From positions 1-20,030 of the IMG/VR virus record IMGVR_UViG_3300042988_000069: a stretch of DNA of 20,030 bases. The stretch is one strand, 5' to 3'. Position numbers and translations under genes: made by a program. This DNA is from a virus. Positions 14,659-20,030 of the stretch are shown here, piece after piece. The notes under the pieces were generated by a model. That model saw only the letters and a list, made by a program, of their open reading frames with translations, had not been told where the DNA came from and made no database searches. Within the stretch, counting starts at the first letter, position 1; each line of letters begins with the position of its first letter.

Positions 14659-16176
14659 TCAGTAGCCGGTAACGGAATCTAGGGCCTCCCAGGCCGCCGA
14701 CTGGTGCACCGGCACCTGCCAGTCATCCAGCTTCTTGGGTGGGACAGCGAAAGTCAGCGCCAGCGAGTCCGCCCGGTCGGGTGACTTGATGCCGCGCTTC
14801 TTGGCGTCTTGCTTGCTCTCGAGCAGCAAGTCCCCGCCCTTGTAGCCGTACTGCAATGCGGTCAGGTCGGTGACCAGGTCGGGGTCGTTGGGGATGGATG
14901 CACCGGCCTTGAGCCACTCGCGCAGGTCGCGCCACATCTTTGCCCGCAGGTTGTAGTTCTGGCCGTCGCCCATGCGCAGCGCGCTGTTGACGTCCACCAC
15001 CATGTCGCCGAAGTCGCGGCGCAGGATGTCGGCCACACCGGAGCCGATGCCGATGGTGTCGACCGCGATCTGGGCCACGTCGCCATTCATGGCGCGGATC
15101 TCGTCCTTGGCCCGGCCAGCAACGTCCACAACGTCCATGCCGGAGAACACGATCTGGCGCAGGCACACGCGGCCTTGGCGGAACGTGAAGCAGGTCTTGT
15201 CGTCGCCGAATCGGGCCACGTCGATGCCCATCAGCACCGGGCCGTAGGCCATGATGTCGGCCGCACCCTTGCGGGCTGCAGCCTGGGCCAGTTCGCCAGG
15301 GATGAATGCGTTGGCCACCGAGGCGGTGTAGCTGCGGTCGACTTCCTGCGCCAGCACGACGGGGTCTAGCGTGGCCTTCTGCTTCTCGTACCAAGCCTCG
15401 TCCTTGCGGGGATCGTCGCGCCAGTCGAAGACGAACTTCTTGGTGCGGCCGTCGTGCGCCCGGCGGTAGAACGGATTGCCCGCGCCGTTGGGCGTGGACA
15501 CGTAGATCCGGCAGTTGGATGTCTGAGACAGCGCAGCGTCGGCTGCGTCTGGGTGCTCGAGGAACGCGGCCTCGTCCACGAAGTAGATCGATGTGCGGTT
15601 GCCTCGGCCAATGTTGTCACCGGCTTCGCCAGTGATGAAGGACCCGTTCTCGGGGTTCTGGATCTTCATGAACGGGGCGTGCTTGCTCGGGTCCCAGCCA
15701 CCTGGCTGGAACTCAGCGGGCAGCAGGTTGATGAACTCGCGCACCTTCCAGAACAGGCTGGCCGGGTTGCCGATCTGGTCGACGTAGCTCTCCTTGCGGG
15801 AGCCAAAGCCCACCACAGTGCCGGTCTTGAAGAGCATCATCCAGGCGGCGAAGGCCACGCACAGCCAGGACACGCCAGCGTCTCGGCTCTTCTCGACGAT
15901 GCCGTCCTCGCGGGCCAGCCAGCGGGCCAGGCACCAGTCGATGAACTCGCGCTGCTTGGGGAAGAGCACGAACGGCACAACGGTGCGCAGGCCCTTCTCG
16001 GCCAGGCGGGGATCGAACGTCATGCCCCAGTCAGAGATGAAGTCTGCCGGGTGCCCGGCGTAGTAGTCGATCAGACGGGCGACGATCTCTGGCTGTGCGC
16101 GCATGCGCTCGAGGCGCTCCACGCGGGTCTGGAACACCTTCTCGTAATCGGGATTGATCCAGTTAAAGTCTTGCAT
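14659..16176 (-). CDS. Terminase large subunit
   Basis: A 505-residue packaging ATPase/nuclease. Numbering is from the GTG one codon upstream. ATPase: deviant Walker A SRDAGVSW (98-105), Walker B SIYFVDEAAF (197-206, acidic D202/E203), coupling motif STPNG (228-232). Nuclease (RNase H-like): GIDVARFGDDKT (318-329) with D320, VDTIGIGSG (373-381) with D374, and SPDRADSLALT (466-476) with D468/D471. The Walker A has Arg before the loop and lacks the usual Lys after Gly, as in a number of P22-like and related terminases. The ATG at 16176 overlaps the small subunit stop by one base (TGATG). An AAGG site lies seven bases upstream of it and only four from the GTG at 16179, so the ATG is preferred. 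It cuts and pumps genomic DNA into the prohead through the portal. Confidence 0.93.
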   Translation of the reverse strand: MQDFNWINPDYEKVFQTRVERLERMRAQPEIVARLIDYYAGHPADFISDWGMTFDPRLAEKGLRTVVPFVLFPKQREFIDWCLARWLAREDGIVEKSRDAGVSWLCVAFAAWMMLFKTGTVVGFGSRKESYVDQIGNPASLFWKVREFINLLPAEFQPGGWDPSKHAPFMKIQNPENGSFITGEAGDNIGRGNRTSIYFVDEAAFLEHPDAADAALSQTSNCRIYVSTPNGAGNPFYRRAHDGRTKKFVFDWRDDPRKDEAWYEKQKATLDPVVLAQEVDRSYTASVANAFIPGELAQAAARKGAADIMAYGPVLMGIDVARFGDDKTCFTFRQGRVCLRQIVFSGMDVVDVAGRAKDEIRAMNGDVAQIAVDTIGIGSGVADILRRDFGDMVVDVNSALRMGDGQNYNLRAKMWRDLREWLKAGASIPNDPDLVTDLTALQYGYKGGDLLLESKQDAKKRGIKSPDRADSLALTFAVPPKKLDDWQVPVHQSAAWEALDSVTGY

Positions 16177-16700
16177 CACTCGCCCTTGATCAGGCGCTCG
16201 TAGGCCTGCTCAGCCGTCAGCGACAAGTCAGCCTTGATCTCAATGGCCTTGCCGTTTGCACCGGTGTGCTCGACTTTGGACTTGTCGCCGTAGGCTGCGG
16301 CGTTGAGCTTCGCGGCCACCTTCAGGTTGACGTCGATGGCTGCGCGCAGGCCTGCGGCATCGCCAATCGCTGCTGCCTTGCGGCCGTAGTCGAGGGCGGC
16401 GTCCACCAGGTTGTGCGAGCGCAGGATGGCCAGCATGGAGTACTGCTCAGCGGTCTCCTCGCTGTCGCACAGGATCTGGCGCAGCTTCCAGCCAGCGATG
16501 GCAAACGGCAGGCTGTCGGCGATCTCTTGGAAGGACTCGCCCCAGACGTAGCGGTCGAACACCTCCTCAGCAACCTCAAGCACTTGGGCCTTGAGCTTCG
16601 CCGCCTCGGCGCGCTTAGGATCAAGGTGCAGTGCGGTGCCTGGTGGCTTGCGCTTCTGGTCTTTGGGGGTGTCTGCCATGGTGATTTGGAGGAGGCCCAC
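16176..16700 (-). CDS. Terminase small subunit
   Basis: A 174-residue DNA-recognition subunit. Residues about 47-78 form a helix-turn-helix (FDRYVWGESFQEIADSL, then WKLRQIL). About 85-140 is a helical oligomerisation region (LRSHNLVDAALDYG, LRAAIDVNLKVAAKLN). The tail YGDKSKVEHTGANG is typical of small terminases of this kind and probably contacts the large subunit. The start is chosen as GTG at 16700: a very strong GGGAGG site lies nine bases upstream. The in-frame ATG at 16679 (MADTPKD) has none. If the ATG were used, the protein would be 167 residues. It is the first gene after the 16749-16778 terminator. Confidence 0.85.
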   Translation of the reverse strand: MGLLQITMADTPKDQKRKPPGTALHLDPKRAEAAKLKAQVLEVAEEVFDRYVWGESFQEIADSLPFAIAGWKLRQILCDSEETAEQYSMLAILRSHNLVDAALDYGRKAAAIGDAAGLRAAIDVNLKVAAKLNAAAYGDKSKVEHTGANGKAIEIKADLSLTAEQAYERLIKGE

Positions 16701-16748
16701 GGCATCTCACCTCCCTGGGAGACGATCAGCTCGGCAAGCGCCGGGGCC

Positions 16749-16778
16749 AAAAAAGAAAAGGCCCGCACAGGGCGGGCC
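16749..16778 (-). terminator. Strong intrinsic terminator upstream of the terminase genes
   Basis: On the minus strand a 7-base GC stem (GGCCCGC / GCGGGCC) with a 5-base loop is followed by TTTTCTTTTTT. It ends the accessory operon. Read on the plus strand the hairpin is followed by GGGTTTTT, so it might work in both directions, but no plus-strand gene needs it. A second small hairpin (GGGGC / GCCCC) lies next to it at 16787-16801. Confidence 0.88.
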
Positions 16779-16790
16779 GGGTTTTTGGGG

Positions 16791-16825
16791 CGTACTGCCC
16801 CGGGCGCTACTTTACAGCATTGTGA
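16791..16825 (-). repeat. Intergenic repeated element, copy B (weak promoter-like)
   Basis: On the minus strand TCACAATGCTG, identical over 11 bases to copy A, then TAAAGT and CGGGGCAGTACGC. A weak -35 (TGGACG) stands 17 bases before TAAAGT, inside the end of the ribbon-helix-helix-like gene. Both boxes are 4 of 6 to the sigma-70 consensus. The terminator begins about a dozen bases beyond. Confidence 0.5.
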
Positions 16826-16826
16826 A

Positions 16827-17117
16827 CTAATCGTCCAGAGTCTGCGGTAAACGGGTCAGGCCCTGCCTTGTGCAGACGGTCAAAAACCGCACGGCAGCCT
16901 CCATCACTTCTCGGTCGGACTGCATGCCCCATTCCTTGCTCAGGTACAGGAAGCACGCGGCGATCTCAGGCGTCAGGTGGGTGTTGATCGTGCGTCCGCC
17001 ATGCTTGAGGCGGTATTTGCGCTGGCGCTCGGCGTGCGTCATAGCGTCCTGCTTGCGGGACCGGAAGCCCTTTTTGCGGGTCAGGTCCTCGGGCTTGATG
17101 TGGTCAATGGCGCTCAT
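16827..17117 (-). CDS. Ribbon-helix-helix-like DNA-binding protein candidate
   Basis: A 96-residue basic protein. Residues 12-40 are rich in Lys/Arg (TRKKGFRSRKQD, then HAERQRKYRLKHG). Residues 41-80 fit a ribbon-helix-helix layout: strand GRTINTHL, helix PEIAACFLYLSKEWG, turn, helix SDREVMEAAVRFL. Such proteins bind operators as dimers, and a regulatory role in the phage is inference. The ATG at 17117 has GAGG eight bases upstream and overlaps the previous stop (ATGA). It is the last gene of the accessory operon. Repeat copy B and the terminator follow directly, so the protein could act on them. Confidence 0.65.
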   Translation of the reverse strand: MSAIDHIKPEDLTRKKGFRSRKQDAMTHAERQRKYRLKHGGRTINTHLTPEIAACFLYLSKEWGMQSDREVMEAAVRFLTVCTRQGLTRLPQTLDD

Positions 17118-17320
17118 AGCCCGAGCCTCGCGGATTCGTGGATCATTGACCCGGCCCAGATCGCCAGCATGATAGTCACGGCCAGGACCAAGCTGTTGAT
17201 GGATGGTTTTAGATCCCGGCGCTCTTCCCGGTCCAGGCGCTCTTTGGCCTCGCGGATGCGCTTGATGCGTACCGGGCAGTCGCGCCCCTGTCGACAGTGT
17301 TTGTTGCAGCAGCAGTTCAT
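17114..17320 (-). CDS. 68-residue cysteine-rich protein with C-terminal membrane span
   Basis: The N-terminus MNCCCNKHCRQGRDCPVR holds five cysteines (3, 4, 5, 9, 15), followed by a charged helix (RIREAKERLDREERRD). A hydrophobic span lies near residues 44-62 (SLVLAVTIMLAIWAGSM). Small phage proteins opening MNC...C-QGR-CP are frequent in proteobacterial phages, often beside a transmembrane segment, without known function. The ATG at 17320 is preferred over an ATG 12 codons upstream because it makes a 4-base overlap with the DUF1289 gene stop. The layout suggests a metal- or thiol-bearing head at the membrane, orientation unknown. Confidence 0.7.
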   Translation of the reverse strand: MNCCCNKHCRQGRDCPVRIKRIREAKERLDREERRDLKPSINSLVLAVTIMLAIWAGSMIHESARLGL

Positions 17321-17517
17321 TGTTTCACTCGATCTTTGTAACGGTTGAATCTCCATGATGTGGCCTCGCGCTCAACGCGCTGCCAGACCAACTCGCGCTC
17401 CTCTTCGCTCATGCCGCTCCATTGGGCCACTTCAAGGTAAGTCCGGCCACAGCCCTTGCAGACTTCGTCGTATAGCGTTGTGCACACGGCGATACAGGGG
17501 CTGTCTGGCCGTGTCAC
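17317..17517 (-). CDS. DUF1289 family cysteine protein
   Basis: A 66-residue protein with the DUF1289 signature: DSPCIAVC, then DEVCKGCGRTYLEVAQW and MSEEERELVW. The four cysteines (C-x3-C-x7-C-x2-C) suggest a bound metal or Fe-S centre. The family is widespread in proteobacteria as a small predicted Fe-S protein of unknown role. The start is taken as GTG at 17517: it overlaps the upstream stop (GTGA) and has a GAGG site seven bases before it. A longer upstream reading exists but adds only low-quality sequence. Confidence 0.85.
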   Translation of the reverse strand: MTRPDSPCIAVCTTLYDEVCKGCGRTYLEVAQWSGMSEEERELVWQRVEREATSWRFNRYKDRVKQ

Positions 17518-17966
17518 GCGGTGGCCTCTTTGGTTGTGGCCACCAGCACCAGAGCGCGCTCCATCTCCTGCACAGTGCATTCCTCGAGCTGCTGAGTGTG
17601 GATTGCCATGCCAGCTTTGATGAGCTGCATCTCGGGGCCCGTGAACAGGAATCGGCCGGTGCGCTCGCCGCGTTCGTGCGCGGCGTAGGCTGCGTCCTTG
17701 GCCGCCTTAAGCTCTGGCAGCCAATCAAAGCCCAGCTTTGGGTTGATGCGCGGCAGGCACACGGCCATGGCAAAGGCCTCGCGCATGGTGTGCGAGTGAT
17801 CGCCCGTGCCGTGGCCCAGGATGATTGCATCCATGGCTGCGACGTTGGCCAGCTTGAGATGGACCCCGGCTTTTGGCACGCTGCCCACAGGTTTGAATCC
17901 GGCCTTGATCCAGCTCATGTTGTCCAAGCGCACACCCTTGGGTTTGTAGCTGCTCTTCTTACGCAT
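17514..17966 (-). CDS. 150-residue conserved phage protein (MRKKSSYKPKG type), unknown function
   Basis: Begins MRKKSSYKPKGVRLDNMSW, an opening seen in many phages of Burkholderiales hosts, always without known function. The middle holds an LKLANVAAMDAIILGHGT helix-rich segment and a region with FAMAVCLPRINPKLGFDWL. The C-terminal half is helical (LIKAGMAIHTQQLEECTVQEM). There is no membrane span or catalytic motif. The ATG at 17966 is chosen because GGAG lies seven to eight bases upstream; the longer in-frame reading to 18104 begins in shadow sequence over the zinc-ribbon gene. It overlaps that gene by 8 bases. Confidence 0.8.
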   Translation of the reverse strand: MRKKSSYKPKGVRLDNMSWIKAGFKPVGSVPKAGVHLKLANVAAMDAIILGHGTGDHSHTMREAFAMAVCLPRINPKLGFDWLPELKAAKDAAYAAHERGERTGRFLFTGPEMQLIKAGMAIHTQQLEECTVQEMERALVLVATTKEATA

Positions 17967-18144
17967 TGTGATTCTCCCTGGGCGTGCAGGTGTGGATGCC
18001 CTGGTCATCGGGCTTGATGCGCAGCACCTTGCCGCATCTCTCGCAGCGCACCTCTTTGCCGAAGATGGCCTCCCACTGCGAGCTGAAGTCTTGCTTCGGC
18101 ACACTGAATGGGCGTGCCGATGATCCCTTGCCGCCGTCGCTCAT
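17959..18144 (-). CDS. 61-residue zinc-ribbon protein (SDGGKGS type)
   Basis: Opens MSDGGKGSSARPFSV, then FSSQWEAIFG, both typical of a common small phage protein of unknown function. A C-terminal zinc-ribbon-like half has CERC (34, 37) and HTC (51, 53), about 13 residues apart. Metal binding is likely from the spacing but not proven. The ATG at 18144 overlaps the glutaredoxin stop (ATGA), and AGGTGG stands just upstream. It may bind nucleic acid or protein. Confidence 0.8.
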   Translation of the reverse strand: MSDGGKGSSARPFSVPKQDFSSQWEAIFGKEVRCERCGKVLRIKPDDQGIHTCTPRENHNA

Positions 18145-18374
18145 AAGCCCACCTGCTTGAGTGCTGATTGAAGACCTGCAAGGCCACCGACGCGCTGACC
18201 TTCGATGAAGATCTGCGGAAGCTGCCGGGCCTCTGGCCAGGTGTTGATGAGCTGATCCATGAACTCAGGATTGCCAACGTCGCGCTCTTCAAACGCAAGG
18301 CCTTTGCTCTTGAGCAGTTGCTTTGCCGTCACGCAGTTGGGGCACGCGTCCTTGGTGTAGATGACGATGATCAT
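18141..18374 (-). CDS. Glutaredoxin-like protein
   Basis: A 77-residue thioredoxin-fold protein: strand MIIVIYT, redox motif CPNC (11-14) at the start of helix 1, FEERDVGNPE (strand 2 region), the cis-proline LPQIFI (52-57) and VGGLAGL (62-68), as in glutaredoxins and NrdH-redoxins. It has the length of a minimal phage glutaredoxin. The likely role is to give electrons to a ribonucleotide reductase, fitting the neighbouring thymidylate synthase. No reductase is in the window, though it could lie beyond the right edge. The ATG at 18374 has GGAG seven bases upstream and overlaps the ThyX stop. Confidence 0.88.
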   Translation of the reverse strand: MIIVIYTKDACPNCVTAKQLLKSKGLAFEERDVGNPEFMDQLINTWPEARQLPQIFIEGQRVGGLAGLQSALKQVGL

Positions 18375-19015
18375 GCGGCGTCTCCGAAGAATGCGTGCAT
18401 GGTGATGGGTGCTGCTGTCCGCAACACATCAAGAACCTGCTGCGCAATTAGTCGATGCTCCTTTTGCGTTGACTCGTGCAGCCTCTGCTTGAGATAGAAG
18501 ATCCATGATCGCATCGTGCCGTTGAAGTACAAACGGCTAGGAGTCATGCCTTCAGGCAAAACAATACGGGCCACCTCTTTCGCTCCGCCATTGGATAGGC
18601 ACCACTCATAGGCAGCCTCAACTGCGGCAATGACAGCAGCTTGCTTGCGTTGCCACTCGGTGTGACGCCAGTCATCGGCAGGCACCTCAACAGACAGTTG
18701 TCTGTTCTTTGGGTGTTGCTCACGAAACTCACGGAAGATAAAGTCATCCAGTTTGTCAACGGTCTGGTAACGCTGCGAAAACTCCTGCGGCTTGATTGAG
18801 CTGTGACGCAGTGCTTGTCGTCCAATATCCCGGGCTGTATTTATCTCAACGCAGACGTTTGCCATGTCAAACGGGGAGACGTGCCCTTCTTCCATGCAGT
18901 AGTAAAGCAGCCGGATGTTCTCGCTGTCTTGACCTTCCGGGTTTGAGACCCGCGCCATGAACATGATTTGCTTGTCGATGTCGGGCGTTGCCCATTGGAT
19001 TTTTACTTGGTTCAT
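18371..19015 (-). CDS. thyX: Flavin-dependent thymidylate synthase ThyX
   Basis: A 214-residue protein with ThyX family landmarks: ARVSNP (21-26), GHVSPFDMANVCVEI (44-58), the signature region RHSSIKPQEFSQRY (70-83), EVARIVLP (147-154), NGTMRS (165-170) and STQKEHRLIA (182-191). The enzyme makes dTMP from dUMP with methylene-tetrahydrofolate and NADPH via FAD. The signature keeps R70, H71, S80, R82 and Y83 but has Ser and Lys where the usual RHRxxS motif has its second Arg and Ser. The distal Arg that activates dUMP (R188 by its place in the Q-x-E-x-R pattern) is kept. An excellent AAGGAG site lies upstream, and it overlaps the 308-residue gene stop by ATGA. G+C is lower than in the head genes (28 of 60 at 18721-18780). 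Confidence 0.88.
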   Translation of the reverse strand: MNQVKIQWATPDIDKQIMFMARVSNPEGQDSENIRLLYYCMEEGHVSPFDMANVCVEINTARDIGRQALRHSSIKPQEFSQRYQTVDKLDDFIFREFREQHPKNRQLSVEVPADDWRHTEWQRKQAAVIAAVEAAYEWCLSNGGAKEVARIVLPEGMTPSRLYFNGTMRSWIFYLKQRLHESTQKEHRLIAQQVLDVLRTAAPITMHAFFGDAA

Positions 19016-19938
19016 GTGTTCTTCTCCTTGAGTTTGGCTTTAATAGCCGCAACGCAAGCGTTCCAGCCATTGGCAAACTCGTAACTTGGTGCTGTACTGA
19101 CTTTCATGGTGTCAGGAACGGCCCATTGCCGCTGTGTTGCGGGTTGGGTGGTGTAGAGGGGTGTCGTATGGAAATGTCCTGGTGTCCAACTTAGTCCGGC
19201 ATCGTTGTCCACAGCACGGGTTCCCATGTCAGCCCAAGCGGCAGGCTCTAAAGGTGCTTTGATAACCTGATCCTCGTATGCGGCTCCACACATTGCACAA
19301 CCGCCAACGCCATCCTGCACGGGTGCTGCGACCATTTTCGTGGCGTCAGGAATATGGTCAGGTGCTGGCTGTGCTGCGGGCGGATTGGCAAGCATTGTGC
19401 GAAGCTCTTGCTTGGCTTCCTCCGCTTGATCGTACGCGCTACCGTCATCAAATCTTCCGCCAACCAGTGACCATGTAGATGCAAAAACTTGCGCCTGACT
19501 CATAACAGCATTCACCCAATCCACCCACGCCACAGGCTCCTGCACAGGTGCTGCGGGTGGGGTGGTGTAGAGGCGGCGTTCCAATTCGTGCCATGCGTGT
19601 TCACGGTTGCGGTGCTGGCTACGCTCGGTATTGCACTCCACGACGATTCCTGTTGGCTTGTGAGTTAGGCGTACACCGTTTTGAAGCCTGAGCATGAATC
19701 CACCTTGTTGATCCGAGTAGGTTTCAACAATCACATCTTCGGGCTTCAGCTTTGTCGGCTCCTGCACAGGTGCTGGCTCCTGCTTCTCTGCTTGCTCGAT
19801 GGCGGTGCGGAGGGAGGTGATGGCTGCGCTGGCTTTTTGCATTGCTTCATTCCCATCATCTGTATGCCAGTCGCAAGTCGCATAAACGAGTTCCAACGCC
19901 TCCAGCGCCTGCTTCATCGCGTTCAGTTGTGTGGTCAT
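19012..19938 (-). CDS. Mosaic phage protein with an RF1-like (release factor) segment
   Basis: A 308-residue protein in pieces joined by Pro/Ala/Gln linkers. Residues 1-50 are helical (LNAMKQALEALE, then AITSLRTAIEQAEKQEP), an opening common in phage proteins of betaproteobacterial hosts. Residues about 64-125 match domain 3 of peptide-chain release factor 1: LKPEDVIVETYS, GGF in place of GGQ, VRLTHKPTGIVVEC and ERSQHRNREHAW. Then come two APVQEP/D linkers, a VAWVDWVNAV segment, CAMCG (214-218) and a C-terminal GWNACVAAIK (291-300). The ATG at 19938 has GGGAG eight bases upstream and overlaps the preceding gene. With the catalytic Gln absent, it is unlikely to hydrolyse peptidyl-tRNA in the usual way; ribosome or RNA binding is inference. 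Confidence 0.7.
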   Translation of the reverse strand: MTTQLNAMKQALEALELVYATCDWHTDDGNEAMQKASAAITSLRTAIEQAEKQEPAPVQEPTKLKPEDVIVETYSDQQGGFMLRLQNGVRLTHKPTGIVVECNTERSQHRNREHAWHELERRLYTTPPAAPVQEPVAWVDWVNAVMSQAQVFASTWSLVGGRFDDGSAYDQAEEAKQELRTMLANPPAAQPAPDHIPDATKMVAAPVQDGVGGCAMCGAAYEDQVIKAPLEPAAWADMGTRAVDNDAGLSWTPGHFHTTPLYTTQPATQRQWAVPDTMKVSTAPSYEFANGWNACVAAIKAKLKEKNT

Positions 19939-20030
19939 AGACCCATCTCCCTTCTGATCTGCCTTACGCGCTCATCGGTGCATCCCACCTCGTGCGCAAT
20001 GGCTGTTGGTTTGACTTTCTCGCGCAGCAG
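19935..20030 (-). CDS. C-terminus of a helix-turn-helix protein (cut by right edge)
   Basis: The last 31 residues of a gene that enters from the right. They include KPTAIAHEVGC, TDERVRQIRREMGL, which fit a helix-turn-helix: helix PTAIAHEVG, turn, recognition helix DERVRQIRREM. The TGA overlaps the ATG of the next gene (ATGA), so it belongs to the same operon. It is likely a DNA-binding protein; the family cannot be told from this fragment. Confidence 0.65.
   Translation of the reverse strand: MLREKVKPTAIAHEVGCTDERVRQIRREMGL

Follow-up and report, generated by a model that had tools for sequence, protein, structure and literature searches.

A release-factor domain 3 with GGF in place of GGQ in a phage cassette protein, and its GGQ-less phage relatives

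The stretch of DNA analyzed here (the window) comprises positions 1 to 20,030 of the virus record IMGVR_UViG_3300042988_000069 and is 20,030 nucleotides long. It covers the structural region of a tailed phage, with genes for a terminase, a portal-like protein and a major head protein, and it encodes near its end a mosaic protein of 308 aa. A first reading, made without database searches (the original prediction), had proposed that residues 64-125 of this protein correspond to domain 3 of the bacterial release factor RF1, with the catalytic GGQ changed to GGF and its loop shortened by two residues. The gene and the motifs that define the release-factor (RF) module are the following.

19012..19938, minus strand: open reading frame (ORF) for the 308-aa mosaic (cassette) protein that contains the RF-1 module, overlapping thyX by ATGA
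19564-19749, minus strand: RF-1 / release-factor domain 3 module, residues 64-125 (approximately 64-126, from 19561, when listed as a feature), identified by profile, sequence and fold matches
19696-19704, minus strand: GGF (residues 79-81), codons GGT GGA TTC, in place of the universal GGQ
19648..19662, minus strand: HKPTG (residues 93-97), with a His that is invariant across the GGQ-less and GGQ-bearing phage mini rows of the alignment
19606..19623, minus strand: RSQHRN (residues 106-111), with an invariant Asn and RSQ at 83-90% in GGQ-less members

Profile searches identified the module. It matches Pfam PF00472 (RF-1) with an E-value of 2e-12 and 47.5 bits, which passes the curated cut-off of 35, as well as the NCBIfam (TIGR) models prfB (9e-14) and prfA (1e-12), whose full-length cut-offs (at least 370 bits) are missed by far, only ~62 residues being matched. 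PHROG_20323, described as "RF-1 domain peptide chain release factor", is matched at 5e-18, and solved RF1/RF2 chains in the PDB are found by sequence at ~1e-10. An AlphaFold2 model of the domain, built from the alignment of the phage family, has a mean predicted local distance difference test score of 83 and a predicted template-modeling (TM) score of 0.66. All of the PDB fold matches listed for it, to a limit of 1e-2, belong to RF1, RF2, mitochondrial RFs or PrfH, with TM-scores of ~0.64-0.81 (~0.77 to domain 3 of RF1/RF2). When compared to RF1/RF2, the loop is shorter by one residue before the motif and one after it, two in total. The original prediction was thus accurate to the base for the position of the module, and correct as to the GGF motif and the length of the loop. 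On its sequence and predicted fold, we consider that this segment is a genuine release-factor domain 3, rather than a chance match, in which the fold is kept and the catalytic Gln is gone.

The module corresponds neither to a complete class-I RF nor to an ArfB/ICT1-type rescue factor. It has neither the catalytic GGQ of class-I RFs nor their domain 1 and codon-recognition domains 2/4 (with PxT or SPF), and, in place of the GGQ and basic C-terminal tail of ArfB/ICT1-type proteins, it displays GGF and runs into a TTPPAAPVQEP linker. It does group with phage domain-3 proteins that are devoid of GGQ, retaining the H, PTG and RSQxxN motifs with a Trp, Phe or Met (W/F/M) for the Gln. In scans of phage genomes and IMG/VR, proteins with an RF domain 3 proved to form a large phage family, many of whose members are short and stand-alone. 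We gathered ~35 GGQ-less homologues, forming 27 clusters at 60% identity, from Otagoviruses, Acinetobacter T4-like phages, Septimatreviruses, Iggyvirus and Vibrio phages; below, L numbers designate individual loci. GGF occurs in the window, L002, L016 and L067, and GGM in Otagoviruses (L008, L025, L030, L034, L037) and in L072, L211 and L218. GGW is found in L085 and L200, next to other W loops (GTW, GQW, GNW), SAW in the Pseudomonas phage LPPA15, L044, L019 and the Septimatrevirus L197, SNW and RRW in Acinetobacter T4-like phages, LSF in Iggy and SNF in L207, with further loops such as TGM and CGM. The proteins of L016, Iggy (L007) and L067 look mosaic as well. Another phage group retains GGQ, typically as GGQHVG, with a C terminus ending in LTSP or ITHP. 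Host RF1/RF2, identified by a scan of genome contigs, served only as an outgroup.

Two further observations concern the architecture of these relatives. L018, L020-L022, L045, L066 and L096-L102 encode stand-alone domain-3 proteins of ~70 aa with GGQ (GGQHVG...) and a conserved LTSP/ITHP C terminus, which are possibly minimal hydrolases without any 30S-binding part. L014 and L051 (GGQ) share with L026 (TWV) a common C-terminal domain, DDVAVDKFAAMMKxKLAK.REKGR.GWD.PE.CS, so that GGQ was lost within one architecture.

The residue that replaces the Gln is far from random. W, F or M lies exactly at the Gln column in 22 of the 27 clusters and inside a five-column window in all 27, compared to 2 of 59 GGQ-bearing rows and a background of 3.5%; at 50% identity there are nine clusters, five with an exact and nine with a near replacement. 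These counts assume that clusters are independent, which shared ancestry weakens, and they include rows whose alignment is ambiguous (L026, L029, L061, L194, L199, L217) or that were placed by hand (L061, L197 and the late-found L207, L211, L217 and L218). The last four, which came to light once the pattern was known, all conform: one has F and two have M at the position, and the fourth has a W near it. Starting from a Gln codon, two base substitutions are needed to reach W, two to reach M and three to reach F. When the loop columns are excluded, the resulting tree requires a minimum of eight switches between GGQ and non-GGQ, in a topology that rests on few columns and leaves many forks unresolved; L198 (CGM) and L061 (GGM) nest in supported GGQ-bearing clades. 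The loss of GGQ is not a one-off but recurs over a broad phage family with W/F/M for Q, which amends the original prediction. Since the core of domain 3 is kept and the Gln is swapped to W/F/M, apparently several times, selection for a non-hydrolytic function is implied.

Other parts of the domain core are conserved. The His, Asn and Ala corresponding to H265, N283 and A287 in Escherichia coli RF2 are invariant in 29 of 29 GGQ-less rows, in which the Pro and Gly of PTG and the R-S-Q are found at 83-97%. Work on YaeJ assigns the catalytic-site residues of the domain to two loops, that of the GGQ and the one preceding the long helix (PMC3950681). Because RSQ sits in the latter, the side of the domain facing the catalytic site is kept while the hydrolytic residue is lost. 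Weak release activity could in principle persist, considering that catalysis has been proposed to use the Gln backbone amide (PMC6742477, PMC5378476) and that both glycines are retained in GGF, GGM and GGW members. However, many sister proteins have lost the glycines (SAW, RRW, SNW, LSF, TGM), and release therefore cannot be the shared function, which makes residual peptidyl-tRNA hydrolysis the least probable explanation that we considered.

The closest relative of the module is the copy in L002/L048, from another phage, which is 71% identical at the protein level, aligns without gaps in the DNA and also carries GGF. The ratio of nonsynonymous to synonymous substitution rates (dN/dS) between the window and L002 is 0.18 (bootstrap 0.08-0.36), and it is 0.08-0.20 for pairs of Otagovirus GGM proteins. 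The module is thus not simply a GGQ copy in decay, the outcome that the original prediction had singled out, together with the absence of an RF-1 match, as fatal to it: the profile match is significant, GGF is common to the window and its closest homologue, which evolves under purifying selection, and the change involves several bases.

The rest of the mosaic protein consists of unrelated segments. From its N terminus, it is composed of a segment starting with MKQALEALE, the RF-1 module between APVQEP linkers, a Gam-like/host-nuclease-inhibitor segment and a C-terminal segment, the main parts being located as follows.

19758..19775, minus strand: linker core (APVQEP) in a second copy, flanking the module at its opposite end
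19535..19565, minus strand: linker encoding ...TPPAAPVQEP, 31 nt of which are identical to the L048 linker
19384..19515, minus strand: cassette, residues 142-185, common to PHROG_6755 / 18351 (Gam-like end protection / host nuclease inhibitor)
19036..19203, minus strand: C-terminal cassette, residues 246-301, PHROG_5117

The 22-nt linker core CCGCAGCACCTGTGCAGGAGCC is present in 80 IMG/VR contigs (L238-L317) as 84 copies, in frame, in ORFs with a median length of 217 aa. Identical linker DNA that joins unrelated cassettes in frame suggests linker-driven domain shuffling in phages. The window protein, with its APVQEP-type linkers, has this organization and is one of the phage cassette proteins with the pattern MKQALEALE...EPVAW...PLYTTPPAAPVQEP...AIEAKLKEKNT, from which it differs by an RF-1 cassette that is rare among them, being found in the ORFs of only two of the 84 linker copies: L288, whose sequence is that of the window, and L293, which is the L002 contig. 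L048 carries the same module in a different cassette protein. The segment does therefore look captured, as originally proposed, and recombination at shared linker DNA is its likely route of capture. The rarity of the module, the great diversity of the cassettes and flanks that cannot be aligned would also suit a passenger, swept into a hypervariable protein and merely tolerated with no dedicated role. We find this unlikely, considering a dN/dS of 0.18 across two contexts and stand-alone relatives that are conserved throughout whole phage genera.

The gene for the cassette protein is followed by two others, for which there are profile or positional data.

18371..19015, minus strand: thyX, which follows in the operon and encodes a flavin-dependent thymidylate synthase (Thy1 profile match, 2e-31)
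18141..18374, minus strand: glutaredoxin gene, also found after the mosaic gene in L048

The mosaic gene is directly upstream of the glutaredoxin gene in L048, whereas thyX intervenes in the window. Positions 15561-20030 of the window (4470 bases) are 100% identical to contig L047 (IMGVR_UViG_3300049844_000047). This contig continues further upstream, through RusA and primase-like genes, and in it an upstream ORF overlaps the start of the mosaic gene by 4 nt. Models for defense and anti-defense systems (PADLOC) gave no match, and a scan of GGQ-less loci for tRNA genes found none near that of the window.

Some relatives provide clues pointing to translation. The GGQ-less copies of Acinetobacter phages lie within tRNA arrays. 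In Acinetobacter T4-like phages, the arrays of KARL-1, Minot and AB1I1T contain, near the GGQ-less gene, a tRNA with a CUA anticodon, and such tRNAs were recorded at three loci.

L193, 1741-1815: CUA-anticodon tRNA (amber-suppressor-like, called tRNA-Pyl), in an array with a GGQ-less gene
L009, 1340-1414: CUA-anticodon tRNA, in an array with a GGQ-less gene
L199, 1547-1618: CUA-anticodon tRNA, in an array with a GGQ-less gene

A link to suppressor tRNAs was considered and set aside, since TAG is a rare but normal stop in KARL-1 (4 of 68 coding sequences checked). In addition, the Otagovirus-type GGM proteins (L008, L025, L030, L034, L037) contain in their C-terminal part a KVxMIKxVRExxGxGLKEAK stretch that matches the L7/L12 C-terminal domain (CTD), PF00542, with 25.6, 29.5 and 30.0 bits in the three tested, two of which are above the cut-off of 25.9.

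How might such a module work? When RF1 is catalytically dead (GAQ), it remains locked on the ribosome (PMC6742477), and hydrophobic contacts help a methylated Gln to dock (PMC8904536). These precedents, together with the tRNA-array siting and the L7/L12-CTD match in relatives, lead us to favor, with a probability of roughly 0.4, the explanation that this domain 3 does not hydrolyze and acts on the ribosome or on its termination/rescue factors. The module would keep docking on the A-site side of the 50S subunit, or on a factor that recognizes domain 3, and a hydrophobic loop tip (W/F/M) would supply affinity in place of catalysis. The site would then be occupied and the peptide not released, which could alter translation termination or ribosome rescue in the infected host. 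The window module would operate while tethered to further small cassettes encoded in an early/DNA-metabolism operon. The ribosome decoy put forward in the original prediction is a hypothesis of this kind, for which the docking-side motif and, in relatives, the tRNA arrays and L7/L12-CTD fusion are circumstantial support. Extending it, phages may repeatedly have converted domain 3 so that it plugs the peptidyl-transferase centre or the A site without hydrolysis, with W/F/M, instead of the water-positioning Gln, holding the domain in a hydrophobic cleft. This would be a protein counterpart of A-site antibiotics, stalling or re-programming host termination and rescue, and in Otagoviruses the L7/L12-CTD-like stretch could bind translational GTPases; we regard this bolder version as doubtful.

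Several points weigh against action on the ribosome. Binding of ArfB to the ribosome requires its basic C-terminal tail (PMC3950681), while the window module has no such tail and no codon-recognition domain, and domain 3 alone may therefore bind weakly. Its net charge is 0, compared to a mean of +2.8 for bacterial RFs. Among the GGQ-less loci scanned, tRNA genes are near Acinetobacter members only, and the L7/L12 stretch is absent from the window protein. Moreover, the cassette protein has no known function. Beyond the identity of the domain and the selection on it, the mechanism proposed here is inferred. The chief rival, which is possible although we lean against it, is a reuse in RNA binding away from the peptidyl-transferase centre, with an RNA of the phage or of the host, or a tRNA, as the target. 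A direct precedent is PrfB3 of plants, a paralogue of RF2 that has lost SPF and GGQ and protects the ends of petB mRNA (PMC5897788), tethering in a cassette protein with no 30S-binding part would suit a binding module, and the Acinetobacter members sit amid tRNA genes. Neither the strong W/F/M bias nor the conservation of RSQxxN on the catalytic-site side would be required of a generic RNA binder. Another partner could be the Gln methyltransferase PrmC (or another protein recognizing domain 3), which a hydrophobic loop that cannot be methylated would occupy as a decoy. The GGQ loop of domain 3 is where PrmC acts (PMC8904536), the fold matches include the RF1-PrmC complex (2b3t) and the replacement residues are hydrophobic. 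Around the motif, however, the loop lacks the conservation expected for a mimic of a single substrate, making this improbable. The preferred reading raises a testable question, namely whether a domain 3 without Gln binds and jams the ribosome, and cultivable Pseudomonas and Acinetobacter phages carry such genes.

Loss of the Gln has precedents, in Dom34, baeRF-1 and MRPS35 (PMC6514570) and in PrfB3 (PMC5897788). In the openly accessible literature that was searched, we found no paper on a phage group with recurrent replacement of Gln by W/F/M, or on any GGQ-less phage RF domain; Burroughs and Aravind 2019 (PMC6514570) cover Gln loss elsewhere, and the word "phage" is absent from their main text. 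The window module shares with domain 3 of RF1/RF2 (PF00472) its fold, the strand-loop-strand-helix order, H.PTG, RSQH.N and their spacing, and differs by the absence of domains 1, 2 and 4, by GGF for GGQ and by a loop two residues shorter. Like the domain-3-only rescue factors ArfB/YaeJ, ICT1 and C12orf65, it has a domain 3 without codon recognition, but these possess GGQ and a basic ribosome-binding C-terminal tail, and ArfB has an inserted helix where the PTG hairpin of the window module is RF-like. Plant PrfB3 is similarly an RF paralogue without GGQ in another role, RNA stabilization (PMC5897788), but it is an RF2-derived chloroplast protein and not a domain-3 module. Dom34/Pelota, baeRF-1 and MRPS35 are also RF domains without Gln that play, or may play, a non-catalytic part on the ribosome (PMC6514570); Dom34 and baeRF-1 have the unrelated aeRF-1 fold, MRPS35 is a mitoribosomal protein and none is from a phage. 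Finally, PHROG_20323, PHROG_3122 and Acinetobacter/Pseudomonas records labeled "peptide chain release factor" belong to the same family as the window module. Their label implies release, yet most of the annotated phage members examined have no GGQ, and many phage genes named "peptide chain release factor" or "peptidyl-tRNA hydrolase", the common labels of GGQ-less members, are probably mis-annotated.
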